This document shows, piece by piece, positions 1-9,918 of a stretch of DNA of 23,421 nt. Made by a program: the position numbers and the translations under genes. This DNA is from a virus. Position 1 is the first letter of the stretch, and every line of letters begins with the position of its first letter. The notes under the pieces are model-generated. The model did no database searches. It saw only the letters and a program-made list of their open reading frames with translations, and had not been told where the DNA came from. The stretch is from the IMG/VR virus record IMGVR_UViG_3300038463_000066, positions 1-23,421 of that record, one strand, 5' to 3'.

Positions 1-1
1 A

Positions 2-109
2 CCATCAACCAACCTACCAAACACTACGACTCTCGCCGTAGCTATAAAGGCTCGCAATACGGGCACGGCCATAACCGCATTAGTCTATGAGGATATGACA
101 CAAACATGA
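2..109 (+). CDS. 3' end of an upstream gene (partial)
   Basis: This frame is open from the window edge to a TGA at 107-109 that overlaps the next start codon (ATG at 106) in the ATGA arrangement used repeatedly in this operon. The 35 visible residues are rich in Thr, Ala and Asn (ending YEDMTQT), like an end fragment of a virion protein. A second frame is also open from base 1 to a TGA at 88-90, and its peptide is rich in Tyr, His and Arg. I prefer the first frame because of the overlap and the composition. The function cannot be told from this fragment. Confidence 0.45.
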   Translation, partial: PSTNLPNTTTLAVAIKARNTGTAITALVYEDMTQT

Positions 110-501
110 AAAAGCTACTTTTAATATGCCTCATCATGTTCAGCGGCATCGCCTCGGCGACGCCCTATCCCATTGGCTCCTCGCCGACCGTTATCGTCAA
201 TGCCGCCAGCATGACATCGACGGTTACGAGCCCGGTGATACAAATTTGGGGCGTCGCGCAGATTGATTGCCAAGAGCTATGGACGGGAACGCCAAGCGGC
301 ACGTTCGCCTTTTATGTCAGCGAAGACCAAGTAAACTGGGACCCCTTGACGCTATCGACGACCATCACGGCTAGCGGCTCCGCCGGCCATGGCACCATGG
401 AACTTATGGGACTTGCCGCGCCATACTTCCAAGTAGTCTATACGCCATCGGCTGGCACCGGATCGCTAACCATCACTTGCTACGCGAAGTTTAGAACATG
501 A
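106..501 (+). CDS. small secreted-type protein of the fibre region
   Basis: This is a 131-residue protein of unknown function. Residues 1-18 form a classical Sec signal peptide: two Lys, a hydrophobic core LLLICLIMF, and an Ala-Ser-Ala cleavage site before TPYP. The rest is rich in Thr, Ser, Gly and Val and looks like an all-beta domain, with two Cys (in QIDCQ and TITCY) that could pair outside the cytoplasm. The stop overlaps the start of the next gene by four bases (ATGA at 498-501), so the two are probably translationally coupled and may act together, for example as a fibre and its accessory. A GAGG stands about 13 bases before the start, which is a long spacing. I do not recognise a family. 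Confidence 0.7.
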   Translation: MKKLLLICLIMFSGIASATPYPIGSSPTVIVNAASMTSTVTSPVIQIWGVAQIDCQELWTGTPSGTFAFYVSEDQVNWDPLTLSTTITASGSAGHGTMELMGLAAPYFQVVYTPSAGTGSLTITCYAKFRT

Positions 502-3197
502 AAAAAATCATACTCGCTATTTTCTTGCTAGCAACGGTGGCAGACGCGCAACAATATGCTACCTGGCCGGTGGTAAGCGGCGGCGGCGGCGGCTCCGGGA
601 CTGTTACTAGCATAACGGCTGGGACTGGGCTAAGCGGCGGCACAATCACAACTAGCGGCACAATTAGCCTGGCGATTCCAGTTACCGTACCTGATGGCGG
701 TAGCGGCGATACGTCCATTACTGCAAATGCAGTAGTCGTCGGGAATGGCACTAATCCTCTAGCCATTGTGACAAACAATGCTTCGGCGACCAATGAATTT
801 TTGACGCAATCAAGCTCAGGAGCGCCGGCATGGGCGGCGCTGGTGTCTGGGGACATCCCGAACAACGCCGCGAACACGAGCGGATCAGCGGCTTCATTTA
901 CCGGGAGCTTATCCGGCGACGTTACCGGAACGCAAAGCGCCACGGCCATTGCGGCCAATGCAGTTACAAACGCCAAGCTAGCTCAAATGCCATCCAATAC
1001 GTTTAAGGGGAATAATACCGGATCGACCGCGAATGCTATAGACATGACGGCGGCTCAAGCCGTGGCAATCCTTCCAACGGTTGTTGGGGATAGCGGGAGC
1101 GGCGGCGCGCAGGGGGTTATCCCGGCTCCGCCGGCTGGTTCTTATGCGGCCGGTGATTACTTGCTCGCTAATGGAACTTGGGCATATGTTGACCAATCGA
1201 AACCGTATTACCAGCCATTTACGATGATAAGTAAAACGGCTAACCCGACCGCGTTGTCAAAAATTAACAATGTCCTGGTTTATACCGGCGTTAATGGGAA
1301 AACGTATGCCGTTACAATCGGCACAGTGTCTTCCACCCTGGCTATCTATGACGCTACCGATCAAGCCTCCCCTATATTGCTATCGAACATGGCGACACTC
1401 CAAGGATCATATAACGCCGTTCATGCTCTAATTTCAGGCGTTGATTACATCATTGTCGCGTCAAGCGGCGGGTATAACCTATACATTATCAACGTTTCAA
1501 ATCCGTATTCTCCGACTATAACGACAACGTTCAATTTAACGTCCGCGACGGGCTCGACTTACAACATCGCTTATTCAAACGGCATGGTTTATCTAGCTTG
1601 CCAAACGGTTGGTTTAAAAGTCGTCGATATCGGCAATGGAATCGGCGGCGGTACGCTAACCGCTCCAGTTGTTACTTATACCCAAGGCGCTGCAAAATCA
1701 TTCGGTGTCGTCGTATCTGGAACTAACCTATTTACTACGCAATATTCGACAAGTCCGTATGCGACGCGTCTCCTAAATTCTTGGACACTAACTGGTCTTG
1801 GAACTGTTGGCGTGCCTTCGTTGGTGCAGAGTCTGACGCTGCCGGGGTTGGGTGAGGCGCTTGGTGTGAGCATTAATTCCAGCGCCACGACGGCGTTTGT
1901 TGCAATCAACACAGGCGTGCAGCAACTCGATATAGTCGACATCACCACGCCGTCATCGATGGCCAACCTAACTCAAGTTACGATGCCAACCGGTTACACA
2001 ATCTCTGCCGCAATGACGGCTGTACCTTACGGTAACTACCTATTTATGCCGGTTGGGTCGAATGCCACCTATGGTGGCGCCGTGCTCATGTACGACATCA
2101 CCAACCGCAGCAACCCGGTGTTAATTAATAATGTCGTGACTGGGGTGGCGACGGTTCCGTTTGGCGGCATCGCAATATCGGGCGGATATATTTTTGCGGG
2201 TGACTACGGAGTTGCTCCCGGCTCAACGGGATCTCTCGACATTTTTACGATGCCGTTGACGACACCAACGTGGGGATTGGCAACCGGAAGCAATTTGAAC
2301 GTCATCAACTCGGTTGGCATAGGATCGACGGCGCCACAGGGGATACTCGACGTTGAAGGCGGCTCAGCGGCAGCGGCGGCAAGCGGCACCAACATTAATA
2401 TCGTCGCTCAGAACGGCGGCTCTACCGCCGGCAATAACGGCGGCAACGTTGTCATCACCGCCGGCACGGCGTCAGGCACCGGCGCTACTCTCGGCCAGCG
2501 CGGCGGCATCATCCTGAACGCTCCGACGGCAACCACCTACCTCGCGAGCGCGCCGACTGTCCCCGCCGTCACCATTGAGGCTTATGGAAACTCAAGCGGT
2601 GGCCAAATGATGAATTTAGTCGGTAACGCCGCGCTGGACTTCGTATCCCTATCAAGCCAAACCAATGCACCTCCGATCGCCTGGTCATACTCGGATTCAA
2701 GCCCGAATAGCCCAATCGCCAATATCAACGTGACGACCGGCAACGGCAAAGGCAACACCATCGGCTTCGGCACGAATTATTCGCCGACAAGCGGCAACCT
2801 TCAGTATTTCATGAACTTCACCGGCTTTGACAAGGGTAGCCTTTTAATCGGTGCGACGTCACAGGGCACCTACCCGGACGCGGTGTTGCAGGTCAACGGC
2901 GCCATTGCCACGGCGGTTGCCGCCAAGACGACAACCTACACGGCAAACGCTAACGACTCGGTGATTCTTTGCAACGCCACGAGCGCGGCTTTTACCGTGA
3001 CGCTGCCGACGGCGGCAAGCATCACGGGCACCGAGTACATGATCAAGAAAACGGATAGCTCGGTGAATGCCTGCACGGTCGGCACGACATCCAGTCAGAC
3101 TATCGACGGCAGTACAACCTACGCGCTGTCTCTGCAATACAAGTACGTTCGCGTCATTTCAGACGGCGCTAACTGGCAAATCTTTGGAAATAACTAA
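498..3197 (+). CDS. tail-fibre-like protein with signal peptide and beta-propeller-like centre
   Basis: This 899-residue protein starts with a signal-peptide-like segment (MKKIILAIFLL, cleavage after Ala-Asp-Ala at residue 17). Next comes a Gly/Ser/Thr-rich region containing GTVTSITAGTGLSGG, a motif common in phage fibre and collar proteins. Residues about 240-590 carry repeated blades ending in patterns such as LYIINVSNP, LKVVDIG, LDIVDITTP and LMYDITNRSNP. These resemble LVIVD-type beta-propeller repeats. A glycine-rich region follows, and residues about 810-899 resemble the C-terminal beta domain seen in many phage fibres (YTANANDSVILCN, then VTLPTAA). The likely role is host recognition or surface adhesion. 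A signal peptide on such a protein is odd, because virions assemble in the cytoplasm. The fibre assignment rests on composition and motifs, not on a receptor-binding match. Confidence 0.7.
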   Translation: MKKIILAIFLLATVADAQQYATWPVVSGGGGGSGTVTSITAGTGLSGGTITTSGTISLAIPVTVPDGGSGDTSITANAVVVGNGTNPLAIVTNNASATNEFLTQSSSGAPAWAALVSGDIPNNAANTSGSAASFTGSLSGDVTGTQSATAIAANAVTNAKLAQMPSNTFKGNNTGSTANAIDMTAAQAVAILPTVVGDSGSGGAQGVIPAPPAGSYAAGDYLLANGTWAYVDQSKPYYQPFTMISKTANPTALSKINNVLVYTGVNGKTYAVTIGTVSSTLAIYDATDQASPILLSNMATLQGSYNAVHALISGVDYIIVASSGGYNLYIINVSNPYSPTITTTFNLTSATGSTYNIAYSNGMVYLACQTVGLKVVDIGNGIGGGTLTAPVVTYTQGAAKSFGVVVSGTNLFTTQYSTSPYATRLLNSWTLTGLGTVGVPSLVQSLTLPGLGEALGVSINSSATTAFVAINTGVQQLDIVDITTPSSMANLTQVTMPTGYTISAAMTAVPYGNYLFMPVGSNATYGGAVLMYDITNRSNPVLINNVVTGVATVPFGGIAISGGYIFAGDYGVAPGSTGSLDIFTMPLTTPTWGLATGSNLNVINSVGIGSTAPQGILDVEGGSAAAAASGTNINIVAQNGGSTAGNNGGNVVITAGTASGTGATLGQRGGIILNAPTATTYLASAPTVPAVTIEAYGNSSGGQMMNLVGNAALDFVSLSSQTNAPPIAWSYSDSSPNSPIANINVTTGNGKGNTIGFGTNYSPTSGNLQYFMNFTGFDKGSLLIGATSQGTYPDAVLQVNGAIATAVAAKTTTYTANANDSVILCNATSAAFTVTLPTAASITGTEYMIKKTDSSVNACTVGTTSSQTIDGSTTYALSLQYKYVRVISDGANWQIFGNN

Positions 3198-3209: not shown

Positions 3210-3497
3210 ATGGTTAGGCGTTTTGCTTTAATTCTTTGTCTTGGCTTGGCAGCGTCGGCATTCGCGGACACGGCACCAACGGTGTATGCCGCAAAAAACC
3301 CGCTCGTTAGCGGTCAACCGCAAACGTATGAAATCTACACGTTGGCGTCGGCCGAAGACGCTAGCGGCAACACCGTGCAAGTCCGTCACGACATTATTAA
3401 GTCCACCACGGTGACTCAGCTTAACAACGCCGTGACTCAGTTGACGACGCAGCAAGCCAACATCGCTTCGTATTTGGCCCTGATTAACGCGCTGTAA
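3210..3497 (+). CDS. small protein with signal peptide and C-terminal coiled coil
   Basis: This is a 95-residue protein of unknown function. Residues 1-19 form a signal peptide (MVRRFALILCLGLAA, cleavage after Ala-Phe-Ala). The middle is a short beta-like segment, and the last 35 residues (VTQLNNAVTQLTTQQANI) show spaced hydrophobic residues with Gln/Asn/Thr, suggesting a short helical or coiled-coil tail. A GGGAG ribosome binding site lies eight bases before the ATG. It follows the large fibre-like gene by 12 bases and is the third consecutive gene with a signal peptide. It could be an accessory or chaperone of the fibre, but nothing in the sequence proves this. Confidence 0.65.
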   Translation: MVRRFALILCLGLAASAFADTAPTVYAAKNPLVSGQPQTYEIYTLASAEDASGNTVQVRHDIIKSTTVTQLNNAVTQLTTQQANIASYLALINAL

Positions 3498-3514
3498 GAA
3501 AAAGGTGACCGCTC

Positions 3515-3601
3515 ATGGCTGACAAGGAAGTCATTGCCAAAAATAATGACGTGGCTGCCTCGCAAGGAAGCGGTGCAGCCGCGTCACCTAGCGGTCAATC
3601 A
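3515..3601 (+). pseudogene. orphan portal 5' end left of the endonuclease insertion
   Basis: The 29 codons from the ATG at 3515 encode MADKEVIAKNNDVAASQ followed by a Ser/Ala/Gly-rich stretch. This resembles the start of the true portal at 4272 (MAEEIKKNNDTASAAQG). The bases around the start are also alike: AGGTGACC, then C plus ATGGCTGA. The reading frame then runs into the antisense strand of the endonuclease gene, so no portal body follows. I read it as the original or co-transferred portal start, cut off when the endonuclease gene arrived. The frame happens to stay open to 4279. The two copies differ at many positions, so this is not a recent exact duplication. Confidence 0.55.
3538..3580 (-). 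terminator. possible weak terminator for the endonuclease gene
   Basis: On the minus strand, just past the stop of the endonuclease gene, the arms GGCTGC (3575-3580) and GCAGCC (3553-3558) can pair. An inner CGC/GCG stem lies around a six-base loop, with a two-by-two mismatch between the stems. A T-rich stretch (TTATTTTT) follows about seven bases after the hairpin. The gap before the T-run is longer than in a classical intrinsic terminator, and the hairpin lies inside the orphan portal codons. It may therefore be chance. Confidence 0.25.
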
Positions 3602-4210
3602 CTAAGCCATTTTTTCCGGTTTGCTGGCGCTGCGGCCATCTTTTTTCGGTGGGGTAAACACCTTATCGAGTGGCCAGCCTTGGTCAAGACGATACTGCAG
3701 CGTTTTCATGCCTATGCCCGATTCACGCCCCCATGCGGACAAGCTAAGCGTTTTACCTTTATAAGTAATGTTTCGATTCGTAACAAGATTTTGCGATTGC
3801 TCAAGTCTAGTAGCCCAGCGGCAATTACTTTTGCAATACCCCTTATTGCCGTCTACTCGATCAATAGTATGTTTTGGGCTAGGGGGCTCGCCCATATCCA
3901 GTATGAAGTTTTCAAATTTTTCCCAACGCTTACAAACGCGAAGGCCACGGCCGCCATATCTTTTAAAAGCAAAAGCGTTTGGATTGTCGCATCGCTGCCG
4001 CATAGCATTCCAATTTTTATAAACCGGGTCAAGGTTGCGCCCATGAGTGCGCCGGAATTCCCTAAGCCAGCAACCGCACGACTTAACTTGATCATGGGTC
4101 AAGTGAGTCGTGCGTACGTCCTTTGTATTGCCGCAATCACACAAGCAATGCCAAGTTCGGTAATCAAGCTGTTTAATCACGGTCAACCGAAAAAACTTTC
4201 TACCAATCAC
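3602..4210 (-). CDS. HNH-type homing endonuclease candidate
   Basis: This 202-residue protein belongs to a type common in phage genomes. Numbered from the GTG start, Cys22, Cys24, Cys26, Cys45 and Cys47 (LCDCGN, then SCGC) look like a zinc-binding N-terminal module. A central region has RYGGRG (84-89) and IDRVDGN followed by NCRWAT (116-134), the conserved core of these HNH/AP2-associated endonuclease-like proteins. The C-terminal part (SAWGRESGIGMKTLQYRL) resembles a helix-turn-helix DNA-binding unit. I chose the GTG at 4208-4210 because a perfect AGGAGG lies five bases upstream and the family usually begins near IGRKFFRLTV. A longer ATG start at 4273 would overlap the portal start. It is the only supported minus-strand gene and is AT-richer than its neighbours, consistent with recent arrival. 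Nicking or cutting activity is inferred. Confidence 0.75.
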   Translation of the reverse strand: MIGRKFFRLTVIKQLDYRTWHCLCDCGNTKDVRTTHLTHDQVKSCGCWLREFRRTHGRNLDPVYKNWNAMRQRCDNPNAFAFKRYGGRGLRVCKRWEKFENFILDMGEPPSPKHTIDRVDGNKGYCKSNCRWATRLEQSQNLVTNRNITYKGKTLSLSAWGRESGIGMKTLQYRLDQGWPLDKVFTPPKKDGRSASKPEKMA

Positions 4211-4232
4211 GTATGCCTCCTCTTGAAAAACC

Positions 4233-4261
4233 TTTCTAAACTTAAGTATGCAGTTTGTCAA
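4233..4261 (-). promoter_or_regulatory. candidate sigma70-type promoter for the endonuclease
   Basis: On the minus strand a perfect TTGACA (4261-4256) is followed, after 17 bases, by TAGAAA (4238-4233), which matches four of six positions of the -10 consensus. A transcript would begin around 4226, just before the AGGAGG at 4221-4216. The site would let the endonuclease be expressed on its own, against the direction of the late operon. The -35 hexamer sits next to the portal ribosome binding site. Confidence 0.5.
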
Positions 4262-4271
4262 GAGGTGACCC

Positions 4272-5894
4272 ATGGCTGAAGAGATAAAAAAGAATAACGA
4301 TACGGCCAGTGCGGCACAAGGCGTTCAAGGTGGACAGCCACAAATGGATATGCGAGAGTTAGGCCAGACCGGTCTTAAGAGATTTTCAGGTTTTTTGTAC
4401 GAGGAATTCCTTAAAGAGCTTACAGGCGAGCGCGCAATTGAAGTGTACAAGGAAATGGGTTGGAATGACCCGACTTGCTACGCCATTCTTTTTGCCATCA
4501 CCATGCTCTGCCGGCGCGTCAAGTGGTTCGTGGAAGCCGCGTCATCGTCCAACCGCGAAGACCAAGCCGCCGGTGAGTTTCTTGAAACGTGCATGAACGA
4601 CATGTCTAGCACGTGGATTGACACGCTCACCGAAATCCTGTCCATGCTGCAATACGGTTACTCGGTTCACGAGATTGTTTATAAGCGCCGGTGCGGTGAC
4701 GTCTTTGACCCGTCCATGCGCTCTAAGTACGAAGACGGCCGGATTGGCTGGCGTAAAATCCCGATTCGCTCGCAAGACAGTATTTACCGTTGGCAGTTTG
4801 ACGACAATGGCGGCATTCAGGGCGTTGAGCAACTAGCCCCGCCGCACTACTACCGGATAACCATACCGGTTGAAAAAATGTTGCTCTTTCGCACCACGAC
4901 TTTCAAGAATAATCCGGAAGGGCAAAGCGTACTACGCGGCGCTTACCGAAGCTGGTGGATGAAAAAACAGATTGAAAATATTGAAGCCGTCGGCGTTGAG
5001 CGCGACCTTGCCGGCTTGCCCATGGCGCTGGTGCCGCCCGAAATCATGTCCAAGAATGCCAGCGCCGACCAAAAAGCCCAGCTTGCTGCCATCACCAATA
5101 TCGTCACCAACATTCGGCGCAACGCCCAAGAGGGCGTCATTATGCCGATGGACTATGACGCGGGCGGCAAACTACGTTTTGAATTAAAATTACTATCGAC
5201 CGGCGGCACGAGACAGTTTGACACGTCGGGAATTATCAACCGCTATGACCAGCGCATGGCTATGACCGTGCTTGCCGACTTCATGTTGCTTGGTCAAGAC
5301 AAGGTGGGCAGCTTTGCGCTTTCTAGTTCAAAGACCAATCTATTCGCAACTGCTATCGGTTCTTTCCTTGACATTATTGCCGACGTTTTCAATCGGTATG
5401 CTATCCCGCGCCTCTTTGCGCTTAATGACTTTTCAATCACCGACTACCCCAAAATCAAACATGGCAATTTGGGCAGTGTTGACCTTAACGAGCTTGGCAC
5501 CTTCCTTCGCAATTGCGCTCAGTCTGGCATCATGTTGGCCCAAGGCCCCGACGCCCAAAAGCACCTAATGGAAATTGCCGGGCTGCCGACGTCGGACACT
5601 CCCGAAGAGGAAACGGAAACCTTTATTGAGGATCCGAGCGGTAAGGCTGGCACGCCTGACGAGCAAAAAGACGATGACGTTGGCAGCGGTGCGCAACAGC
5701 CTATGGGTGCCGGGCGCCAAGGGCCGGAAGCCGAGCTTGGCCCGGAGCCCATTTCGGAAGTCGGGCAGCAACCGCCTTACGACAACACCAGCGGCACCAC
5801 CGAGGAAACCGACCAACACCGAAGCTTTCTAGGTAATAAAAACCGAAGCTTTCTAGGTAATAAAAACCGAAGCTTTCTAGGTAATAAAAAATGA
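4272..5894 (+). CDS. portal protein (DUF935/Mu gp29-like)
   Basis: This 540-residue protein should form the dodecameric ring at the capsid vertex through which DNA passes. Residues about 50-160 (GWNDPTCYAILFAITMLCRR, then EILSMLQYGYSVHEIVYKRR) match the layout of DUF935-type portals: a two-helix motif, then the 'sequence with GYSVHE' strand. Residues about 440-516 are Pro/Glu/Gly-rich and probably disordered. The last 24 residues are three copies of the octapeptide RSFLGNKN (the last ending KK), encoded by a perfect 24-base tandem repeat. The ATG at 4272 has AGGTGACC just upstream. The stop overlaps the next start in ATGA. The gene lies directly after the endonuclease insertion, and its 5' end is duplicated at 3515. 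Confidence 0.85.
   Translation: MAEEIKKNNDTASAAQGVQGGQPQMDMRELGQTGLKRFSGFLYEEFLKELTGERAIEVYKEMGWNDPTCYAILFAITMLCRRVKWFVEAASSSNREDQAAGEFLETCMNDMSSTWIDTLTEILSMLQYGYSVHEIVYKRRCGDVFDPSMRSKYEDGRIGWRKIPIRSQDSIYRWQFDDNGGIQGVEQLAPPHYYRITIPVEKMLLFRTTTFKNNPEGQSVLRGAYRSWWMKKQIENIEAVGVERDLAGLPMALVPPEIMSKNASADQKAQLAAITNIVTNIRRNAQEGVIMPMDYDAGGKLRFELKLLSTGGTRQFDTSGIINRYDQRMAMTVLADFMLLGQDKVGSFALSSSKTNLFATAIGSFLDIIADVFNRYAIPRLFALNDFSITDYPKIKHGNLGSVDLNELGTFLRNCAQSGIMLAQGPDAQKHLMEIAGLPTSDTPEEETETFIEDPSGKAGTPDEQKDDDVGSGAQQPMGAGRQGPEAELGPEPISEVGQQPPYDNTSGTTEETDQHRSFLGNKNRSFLGNKNRSFLGNKK
5819..5890 (+). repeat. three perfect tandem 24-base repeats
   Basis: Units lie at 5819-5842, 5843-5866 and 5867-5890. Each begins CCGAAGCTTTCTAGG and ends TAATAAAAA. 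They are in frame, adding RSFLGNKN three times to the portal C-terminus. The last unit ends exactly at the ATG of the next gene (5891), so its TCTAGG also serves as the only visible ribosome binding region for that gene. Identity between copies implies recent slippage or selection. Confidence 0.95.
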
Positions 5895-7611: not shown

Positions 7612-9918
7612 ATGGGCAGAGTGATTGACGCGGTTAAACGCGTCGTGGGCAAAGGTCAACCAACGTCAAGCGACGTGCATGTGAATGCACCGCTAGGCTC
7701 GCGCCGTCGTCTTAAAAAGAATGACGTCGATAATACTGACACCGACCCGCCGCTCAATAACCTCGAAGCGGAATTTATTCACGCCGCCATCGGCCGCAAG
7801 ACCATGGACGCGCCCCAACCTTTTGGTGCCGAGCCCGACGACGATGACGAGCAAGACGACGATGACGTTGAAAAGCGCCGGCACAATATTGATGACGACG
7901 AAGACGAAGACCTTGAAGACGACGAAGACTATGACGACATTGAAAAGGCTAGTCCGCGCCGTGTGGCGTCGGTTGCCGTCATGCACGGTGACCACTTGCT
8001 CATGGGAAAGCGTCGTGACAATGGTAAGTGGACGATGCCCGGTGGGCATGTTGACGACGGCGAAGACTTCCATAGTGGTGCGCTTCGGGAATTACTCGAA
8101 GAGGCTGGAATTGAAACGGACAGGCTTGACGCTCTTACCGACGTCAATGAAAAAACCGACAAAGCGGGCTTACCGCTACACGTGCAAGGCTTTGGCCTAG
8201 ACCTGACCGACGATGATCGGCCGCCCACCACCATGCAGGGGGACCCTGACGGTGAAGTGCATCGGTGGCAGTGGGTCAATACGGCCGACGGTTTGCCGGA
8301 CGATATCGCCGAAAATATGCACGTGCCACCCGAGCATAATATTTTAATGCACGCGCTCGGGCTGGCCGAGCCGGTCGAAAAAGACGACGCGCCAGACGGC
8401 TCGTGGCTGCACGACTATCAAAATCTTGTCAGCGGCATGGACTATGAAGCTGAAGACGCGGGGGACAATGACCACGACACCCACCGAGCCATTGCCGCCG
8501 CTAATCTTGCTGAAGACCCGGACCACTACAAAGACGCCCGCGCCGAAGACGGCGAAGACGTCGGCGACGGGCTCAACCTTGACCTCGGTAGCGGTCAAGC
8601 TCGGCAATCAGGTTATTTGGGTGTGGACACGTACAAATTCGATCACGGTACTATCGTCCATGATTTGACATGCGGGTTGCCCTTCCCCGATGGTTGCGCT
8701 TCCAATGTCCGCATGGTGAACGCGCTGCACACGGTTGACCACGGTGGCGACATTAAGCCGCTACTGTCTGAAATTCAGCGCGTGCTCATGCCCGGAGGTC
8801 AGTTTTATTATGAGGGACCTTCTGATATCTCGAATGATGCAGGCCAGCTTGAAGGACTGGCAGACGTCACGCCCGAAGAGGTTGGCAAAGACGCGGCCGG
8901 CGACAACAGTGACACCGGTTTCCCCGAAGGCGATAATGACACGCGATGGCATTACCACGTCTTCTCTCGCCTCGCGAATCCTGACGCAGCCGCGTCCGAT
9001 GACGCTCAGCCTCGAATCGGTCTTGCCGCGCAAGACAATCTTGGGTCGGATACTTTACTCGCCTCTGACGTTGACAGCTATTATTCTGAAGACAGCACGA
9101 CAACTGGCGCGGGTAATCGGCGGCATGGTTATCCCTCGCAAGGGGCGCTAGTCGCCAAGGGTGGACCGGGTAGCGGACCACACCCAGGCGAGGGCGGTGA
9201 AGGCAAAAAGCCTAAAGAGAAAAAAGACCCGGCCACCATGTCAGTTGGTGAGCTTAAAAAAGAATACGCTTCGCTTCATGAAAAACAATCAAAGAATACT
9301 AGCGCGCAAATTGAAGCTGGCTTCGGCACAATGCGCCCATCGGATATGCGCCAGCAACAGCCCAATCACCCCCTAACAAAAGAAATGGATGCCATAAGTG
9401 ACCGCATGTTTGCCATTCGGCATGAAGCTGAGCGGCGCGGTGGTCCGGGTTTTTCTGTTGACCAGCTTACGCGTATTCATAAGCCTATAGGTAAATCAGC
9501 ATACATCGCCAAGTCTCTCACTGGTGAAGGTTTCCAGACCACCAAGTTTTGCCCAATCTTTAAAGCTGTCGCGTCTCAACAAATTGTCTATTGCGTCGTG
9601 CTCACGCCCGACGAAGCTGACGAGCAAGATGATTTTATGGACGCCGACGAAATTGAAAAGACGGCGCACGAGTATTTACTAAAATCGCGCGTCATCGGCT
9701 CAAACCACACCAAAGCTATTCAAGCCGCGCCGGTGGAAAGCTATATCGCGCCGTGCGACTTTGACGGCAACGGGCAGTATGGTCCGCAAACCGTAAAAAA
9801 AGGCTCGTGGTGCATCGGCATCAAAGTCTTCGACAAAGACGAGTGGAAAAAAGTTGAAAAGGGCGAATATCAAGGCGTCAGCGTTGGTGGTCTTGGCTTG
9901 CGCGACCGAATGAATTGA
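7612..9918 (+). CDS. Nudix / methyltransferase-like / XkdF-type prohead protease fusion
   Basis: This 768-residue protein has a clear multi-domain order. Residues 16-28 read QPTSSDVHVNAPL, nearly the capsid protein N-terminus. Residues about 75-115 are an Asp/Glu-rich linker. Residues about 117-260 form a Nudix hydrolase with an intact box at 145-167 (Gly145, Glu151, Arg159, Glu160, Glu163, Glu164, Gly166). Residues about 320-430 look like a class I SAM methyltransferase (LNLDLGSG, GVDTYKF, LPFPDG, RVLMPGGQFYYE). KGGPGSGPHPG follows at 516-526, then a charged helical stretch. Residues about 657-768 match XkdF-type prohead protease (IVYCVVLTPDEAD, SNHTK with His699, VESYIAP, GVSVGG with Ser757); His699 and Ser757 are the candidate catalytic pair. 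The start has AAGGAAGG upstream. The protease should cleave scaffold and capsid during maturation. The substrates of the extra domains are unknown. Confidence 0.8.
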   Translation: MGRVIDAVKRVVGKGQPTSSDVHVNAPLGSRRRLKKNDVDNTDTDPPLNNLEAEFIHAAIGRKTMDAPQPFGAEPDDDDEQDDDDVEKRRHNIDDDEDEDLEDDEDYDDIEKASPRRVASVAVMHGDHLLMGKRRDNGKWTMPGGHVDDGEDFHSGALRELLEEAGIETDRLDALTDVNEKTDKAGLPLHVQGFGLDLTDDDRPPTTMQGDPDGEVHRWQWVNTADGLPDDIAENMHVPPEHNILMHALGLAEPVEKDDAPDGSWLHDYQNLVSGMDYEAEDAGDNDHDTHRAIAAANLAEDPDHYKDARAEDGEDVGDGLNLDLGSGQARQSGYLGVDTYKFDHGTIVHDLTCGLPFPDGCASNVRMVNALHTVDHGGDIKPLLSEIQRVLMPGGQFYYEGPSDISNDAGQLEGLADVTPEEVGKDAAGDNSDTGFPEGDNDTRWHYHVFSRLANPDAAASDDAQPRIGLAAQDNLGSDTLLASDVDSYYSEDSTTTGAGNRRHGYPSQGALVAKGGPGSGPHPGEGGEGKKPKEKKDPATMSVGELKKEYASLHEKQSKNTSAQIEAGFGTMRPSDMRQQQPNHPLTKEMDAISDRMFAIRHEAERRGGPGFSVDQLTRIHKPIGKSAYIAKSLTGEGFQTTKFCPIFKAVASQQIVYCVVLTPDEADEQDDFMDADEIEKTAHEYLLKSRVIGSNHTKAIQAAPVESYIAPCDFDGNGQYGPQTVKKGSWCIGIKVFDKDEWKKVEKGEYQGVSVGGLGLRDRMN

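Follow-up and report, generated by a model that had tools for sequence, protein, structure and literature searches.

Mobile endonuclease open reading frames that import a foreign end of a gene and displace the native one have been described in fungal mitochondria, for atp6 in Allomyces and for atp6, atp9, cox2 and nad3 in Glomus (PMC3630166), and the Allomyces atp6 element is the closest known case to the phage locus discussed here. Among phages, the free-standing homing endonucleases SegF, SegG and MobE of the T-even group reside beside conserved genes and co-convert the flanking sequence (PMC2988022). What the T-even systems show is replacement of flanks and splitting of genes (nrdA, gene 60 and gene 43), often with cleavage at a considerable distance from the gene; duplication is not mentioned in the review of T-even homing (PMC2988022). 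In the Cluster J mycobacteriophage Omega, the HNH gene 51 lies beside lysin A and the neighbouring gene gained a new 3′ end, which its authors tentatively ascribe to errors of repair or to a donor with a distant sequence context (PMC3706429). HNH and other nuclease genes have furthermore been found beside essential genes in homing endonuclease islands, where they mark exchange boundaries (PMC10448857). Co-conversion and split genes are well known for phages (PMC2988022) and the logic of doubled ends for fungal mitochondria (PMC3630166); for homing endonucleases of phages, the limited open-access literature searched yielded no description of gene ends doubled on either side.

The locus lies in a 23.4-kb phage fragment (23,421 nucleotides, hereafter the window) with a block of head and tail genes, in which a minus-strand HNH endonuclease gene is flanked by two starts of the portal gene. 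As in Allomyces and Glomus, the endonuclease ORF stands between a presumed foreign end that is fused to the gene and a presumed displaced native end, and the differences between the two ends are mostly silent. The fungal cases concern doubled 3′ ends in mitochondria, with a LAGLIDADG ORF in atp6, whereas in the window the endonuclease is of the HNH type, belongs to a phage, is encoded antisense to its target and accompanies a doubled 5′ end. With SegF, SegG and MobE it shares a free-standing endonuclease beside a conserved gene. Unlike the window, the Omega insertion lost 35 bp of its target, and no doubled end is described in the part of the report available (PMC3706429); the islands involve another, AP2-linked HNH group, and the accessible text on them does not describe doubling of gene ends (PMC10448857).

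The complete portal gene (4272-5894, plus strand) is firmly assigned by its profile matches (phrog_113, E=5e-84; Portal_Mu, E=6e-30), and its 5′ end is referred to below as copy 2. Close to its 3′ end (5820-5893) a 24-bp unit occurs three times, each encoding RSFLGNK and a linker residue. Further downstream, positions 7612-9918 encode a single protein of 768 aa that combines a NUDIX domain, a methyltransferase-like part and an XkdF-type head protease (PF14550). Upstream, the ORF list contains a small plus-strand gene of 95 aa (3210-3497), for which profile searches gave no family above the cut-off; its matches are confined to the window's phage type, and relatives sought with it as an anchor yielded the same phage only. 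A 59-kb contig (L001) has an arrangement identical to that of the window, at 99.98% identity over 10 kb, and represents the same phage type, so that it offers no independent support. From position 858 onwards no difference separates the window from the 59-kb relative over at least 7.6 kb; upstream of this position the 5′ part of a tail-like gene (498-3197) is replaced (window 1-858 versus L047 1-2649), with 899 aa encoded in the window compared to an open frame of 1262 codons in the 59-kb relative.

The endonuclease gene (3602-4210, minus strand) encodes 202 aa, and its assignment to the HNH group is firm, judging from its matches to phrog_374 (E=7e-61) and other HNH PHROGs. Translation probably begins at the GTG at 4210, which is preceded by a ribosome-binding site GAGGAGG (4216-4222, minus strand), rather than at the ATG at 4273. 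A possible promoter, TTGACA-17-TAGAAA (4233-4261, minus strand), was read by eye; it is weak and failed the sigma-70 rule. In an alignment of 36 HNH sequences the zinc-ribbon cysteines are invariant, as is a G/W/R/Y/N/W core, and the AlphaFold model of the protein has a mean pLDDT of 91.6. Searches of Pfam and NCBIfam gave no match for the protein, and a Foldseek comparison of the model with the PDB gave none with E<=0.001. A group I or group II intron around the gene was ruled out, as no Rfam match was found in the window; the gene is complete with a start and a stop of its own, runs antisense to the portal gene and is accompanied by about 70 nt of other sequence, not enough to accommodate a group I intron. 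By its sequence, the gene is thus free-standing and outside any self-splicing intron or intein. A second, partial HNH relative comprising the zinc-ribbon part only is present in the 59-kb relative (G001, 50270-50488).

The original prediction, made from the letters of the window, placed two portal-type starts on either side of the minus-strand endonuclease, and both were confirmed, at 3515 and 4272. Copy 1 starts 17 nt past the stop of the 95-aa gene with ATGGCTGAC at 3515, preceded by the ribosome-binding region AAAAGGTGACC (3500-3510, plus strand), and encodes the peptide MADKEVIAKNNDVAASQGSGAAASPSGQ. Copy 2 starts with ATGGCTGAA at 4272 after AAGAGGTGACC (4260-4270, plus strand) and encodes MAEEIKKNNDTASAAQGVQGGQPQMDMREL; the two ribosome-binding regions form a direct repeat (D5) with 91% identity. 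The first start had been described as running for 29 codons before it enters the insert; it does end early at the insert, yet its length is 28 codons (3515-3598, plus strand), and its last codon abuts the HNH gene, the stop of which lies at 3602. When the peptides of all 1167 start codons of the window were ranked against portal starts, copy 1 was the top match to copy 2 (score 37) and also to the portal start of the relative L024 (about 42-43, with the next best at 32), and summed over five relatives it ranked second, behind copy 2 alone. At the DNA level the repeat test of the flanks was modest, with about 0.8% of cross-locus flank pairs scoring as high as the window. Related portals of this group begin with a variable stretch of a few residues that includes K-N-x-D, for instance MTVKEPVQKNNDESS in L002, MSDDKELVRKNSDVPS in L024 and VIEKVTKNDDVPAS in L025. 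On these peptide comparisons copy 1 is a genuine portal start, and the finding that it matches portal starts stands against an origin in an unrelated conserved gene.

The doubled start is best explained by free-standing homing with co-conversion, a reading to which we assign a probability of roughly 0.74. The endonuclease gene would have been located directly upstream of the portal start in a donor phage, and the portal gene of the recipient would have been cut near its 5′ end and then repaired from the donor. At the right junction, recombination inside the conserved portal body would have imported the donor's portal start together with the endonuclease, while at the left junction donor DNA would have been joined without homology inside the start of the recipient's gene, of which the first 28 codons would persist as a stub. 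Copy 2 would now supply the start of the portal protein. Copy 1 is presumed to be the native and copy 2 the imported end, as copy 1 directly follows the upstream gene; position is the only guide here, as the portal relatives are 58-68% identical and the search among them gave none that is close and has an empty site, whereas in the fungal cases close relatives prove which end is native. The nuclease activity of the HNH protein, the site of cutting and the direction of transfer are likewise inferred. No donor phage was found, and at this level of identity (58-68%) the portal body shows no visible breakpoint between donor and recipient.

The portal loci of relatives are in line with an extra start that belongs to the endonuclease. 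In 14 testable portal loci, none of which has a detected HNH gene, the 1.5 kb upstream of the portal contains no further portal-like start, so that the extra start is linked to the presence of the HNH gene. Several of the relative contigs are fragments, and the search accordingly covers the portal neighbourhood. In the relatives L002, L024, L025, L028, L043 and others a single portal start follows an upstream gene of unrelated identity, and the search for HNH relatives at the portal found none. An upstream frame in L024 (score 33) was considered as a second start and rejected as an Ala/Pro-rich frame. The suggestion that the same endonuclease might sit at portal starts of other phages found no support, as an HNH relative beside the portal was seen in none of the fetched portal loci outside the window's phage type; the annotated phages BcepMigl and PdC23 were considered as examples, and their HNH genes are not near the portal. 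Insertions of another kind were noticed in other contigs: the portal homologue of L052 (3264-5651) carries an in-frame intein-like insert of about 350 aa, and a terminase-like ORF of 1219 aa in L009 (522-4181) apparently has two intein-like inserts.

Base composition contributes less than had been supposed. The insert had been called AT-richer than its surroundings, which holds slightly (47% G+C in the HNH gene versus 48-58% in other late genes), but the contrast was overstated by quoting a single line with 67%. The low G+C adds little in any case because portal 5′ ends are also AT-rich in the relatives L003, L031 and L032, in which no HNH gene was detected. A G+C dip at the portal 5′ end was considered as a trace of a conversion tract and ruled out, since relatives without a detected HNH gene show the dip too. 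The portal starts of L003 (1416-1560), L031 and L032 form AT-rich islands in G+C-richer genes, with no HNH relative detected nearby.

Among the alternatives, a duplication of the portal 5′ end in place, at insertion of the HNH gene or by repair slippage, followed by drift of the copies, retains the most weight, although we consider it improbable. It would account for the leader AGGTGACC-ATGGCTGA, which is common to copies 1 and 2 and occurs in no relative's start. Against this, copy 2 is closest to the portal starts of L025 (54) and L002 (46) and copy 1 to that of L024, in a comparison that involves about 28 residues of copy 1 and relatives too distant to show which end they match; neither copy is closest to the other, which favours an imported start over a local duplication. 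Moreover, the aligned core of the two copies comprises eight codons, in which five of the six identical residues are encoded by different codons, whereas in a stub without function amino acid replacements would be expected to accumulate no more slowly than silent changes. Since a drifting stub would be free in its amino acids, the silent-site pattern points to two lineages, each of which was selected as a portal start before they were joined. The original statement that a simple target duplication is unlikely is thus supported, since the copies have different closest relatives and since doubled ends differ mainly at silent positions.

Because the core in the window is just eight codons long, the same scar was sought elsewhere, in a survey of HNH relatives of the same family from viral contigs, the left and right flanks of which were compared as protein. 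Doubled, diverged gene ends around the HNH gene were found at five further independent places, three of them 5′ ends and two 3′ ends. In L069/L070 the 5′ end of an IMPDH/GMP reductase gene (PF00478) is doubled, with a stub MSDLVRSYNFKDVAICQKENICNSRLDAK, the stop of which overlaps the HNH start, followed by the HNH gene and the full gene beginning with MFKKSYKFSDIAIYQKENICKSRLDTK. L123 has the doubled 5′ end of a helicase gene (MNYHEFLARKRIVDP before and MKSYHEFLEKKRIIDP after the HNH gene), and L183 that of an unnamed gene with 39 aligned residues. The 3′ ends concern L095, where ESYYRHIKLTSSGV and a stop precede the HNH gene, ESFYRHIKLTSSGV and a stop directly follow it and the complete gene is a homologue of phiKZ042, and an ATP-dependent DNA ligase in L219. 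In the 5′ cases the HNH gene is adjoined downstream by the complete gene and upstream by the stub, and the 3′ cases are mirrored. The mechanism would take the general form of a nuclease gene linked, in the donor, to one end of its target gene; in the 3′ cases the donor's gene end would be imported and the recipient's old end left as a stub, in mirrored order. The IMPDH/GMP reductase gene with the doubled start (L069, 4609-6675) also has an intein-like insert with a LAGLIDADG domain.

Pooled over the doubled ends, including those of the window and of a further, ambiguous locus (L067), the silent divergence pS is 0.86 compared to a pN of 0.22, which is lowered somewhat by the choice of pairs by protein similarity; differences at the three codon positions number 31, 31 and 79, and 54 of 88 identical residues are encoded by a different codon. 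The excess of pS over pN and the codon switches indicate that most of the divergence arose while both ends were under selection as protein, and the recurrence of the silent-site pattern at five other HNH loci again speaks against local duplication. L067, a similar case with two tail-gene starts around an antisense HNH gene, was kept apart because tail genes often share N-termini. The survey matches L166, L078, L132 and L012 were rejected since they look like composition artefacts.

A further alternative, which we regard as less likely still, is that two portal genes recombined in the usual mosaic fashion, the HNH gene being uninvolved or having entered the gap afterwards. Tail genes of this phage are indeed mosaic, the window and L001 differ upstream of 858 and are identical after it, and the two tail-gene starts of L067 could reflect plain module exchange. 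Doubled ends are nevertheless commoner beside HNH genes: by a positional rule, a doubled end adjoins 9 of 135 HNH genes versus 11 of the 644 control genes from these contigs (P=0.003), and by inspection five of the HNH matches are clean while the control matches are repeats or of low complexity. In addition, L095, L123, L183 and L069/L070, which make up four of the five clean cases, have a copy that begins no more than 8 nt from the HNH stop. The scar is present in only about 4% of the surveyed HNH loci. That copy 1 might be a separate small gene or leader peptide and no portal remnant is very improbable, since, despite its own ribosome-binding site and a frame that stays open for 254 codons, two comparisons rank its peptide first in the window against a portal start, and profile searches assign the 254-aa frame to no family. 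Homing with co-conversion, by contrast, agrees with the differing affinities of the copies, with the single starts of relatives without a detected HNH gene at the portal and with the same architecture recurring around the same HNH family.

The open frame itself (3515-4279, plus strand, from the ORF list) runs from the ATG of copy 1 through the antisense HNH gene and the leader and ends in the TGA at 4277-4279, overlapping the portal ATG by 8 nt. As an open plus-strand frame requires, none of the 24 Leu and Ser codons of the HNH gene is TTA, CTA or TCA, for which the chance is P 0.003 under phage codon usage and 0.0008 under the gene's own third-position bias, values to be read in the light of the frame having been picked after it was seen; the leader staying open adds a factor of about 0.3. 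A general avoidance of such codons in antisense HNH genes was rejected as an explanation (121 observed versus 102 expected in 20 loci), and four of these 20 loci have none of TTA, CTA and TCA, compared to about 1.6 expected. L068 and L135 are further antisense HNH genes without these codons (2.4 and 1.8 expected, respectively). An inverted repeat (I3, 4219-4265, with arms at 4219-4231 and 4253-4265) can pair with the portal ribosome-binding site in the plus-strand RNA and with that of the HNH gene in the minus-strand RNA; its folds on the two strands (-16.3 and -22.2 kcal/mol) are weak by their z values (-1.3 and -1.6). Hiding of the ribosome-binding site is known as a control of T4-type endonuclease genes (PMC2988022). 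The open frame together with a hairpin over the portal ribosome-binding site makes a translational bridge conceivable, if unproven and rather doubtful, in which ribosomes would start at 3515, read 254 codons, stop at 4277-4279 and restart at the portal ATG at 4272, opening the hairpin. Under such a bridge, selection would have removed TTA, CTA and TCA from the HNH gene, which would keep the bridge open and the late operon downstream unsilenced.

Taken together, the window and the survey suggest that homing endonucleases of phages have, on repeated occasions, replaced the start or end of an important gene by a foreign one while the old end is kept as a stub. Such stubs would mark the side that was repaired without homology, would point to likely cut regions and could be searched for in any genome. 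The locus in the window would also link invasion by an endonuclease to changes at the N-terminus of a portal protein.
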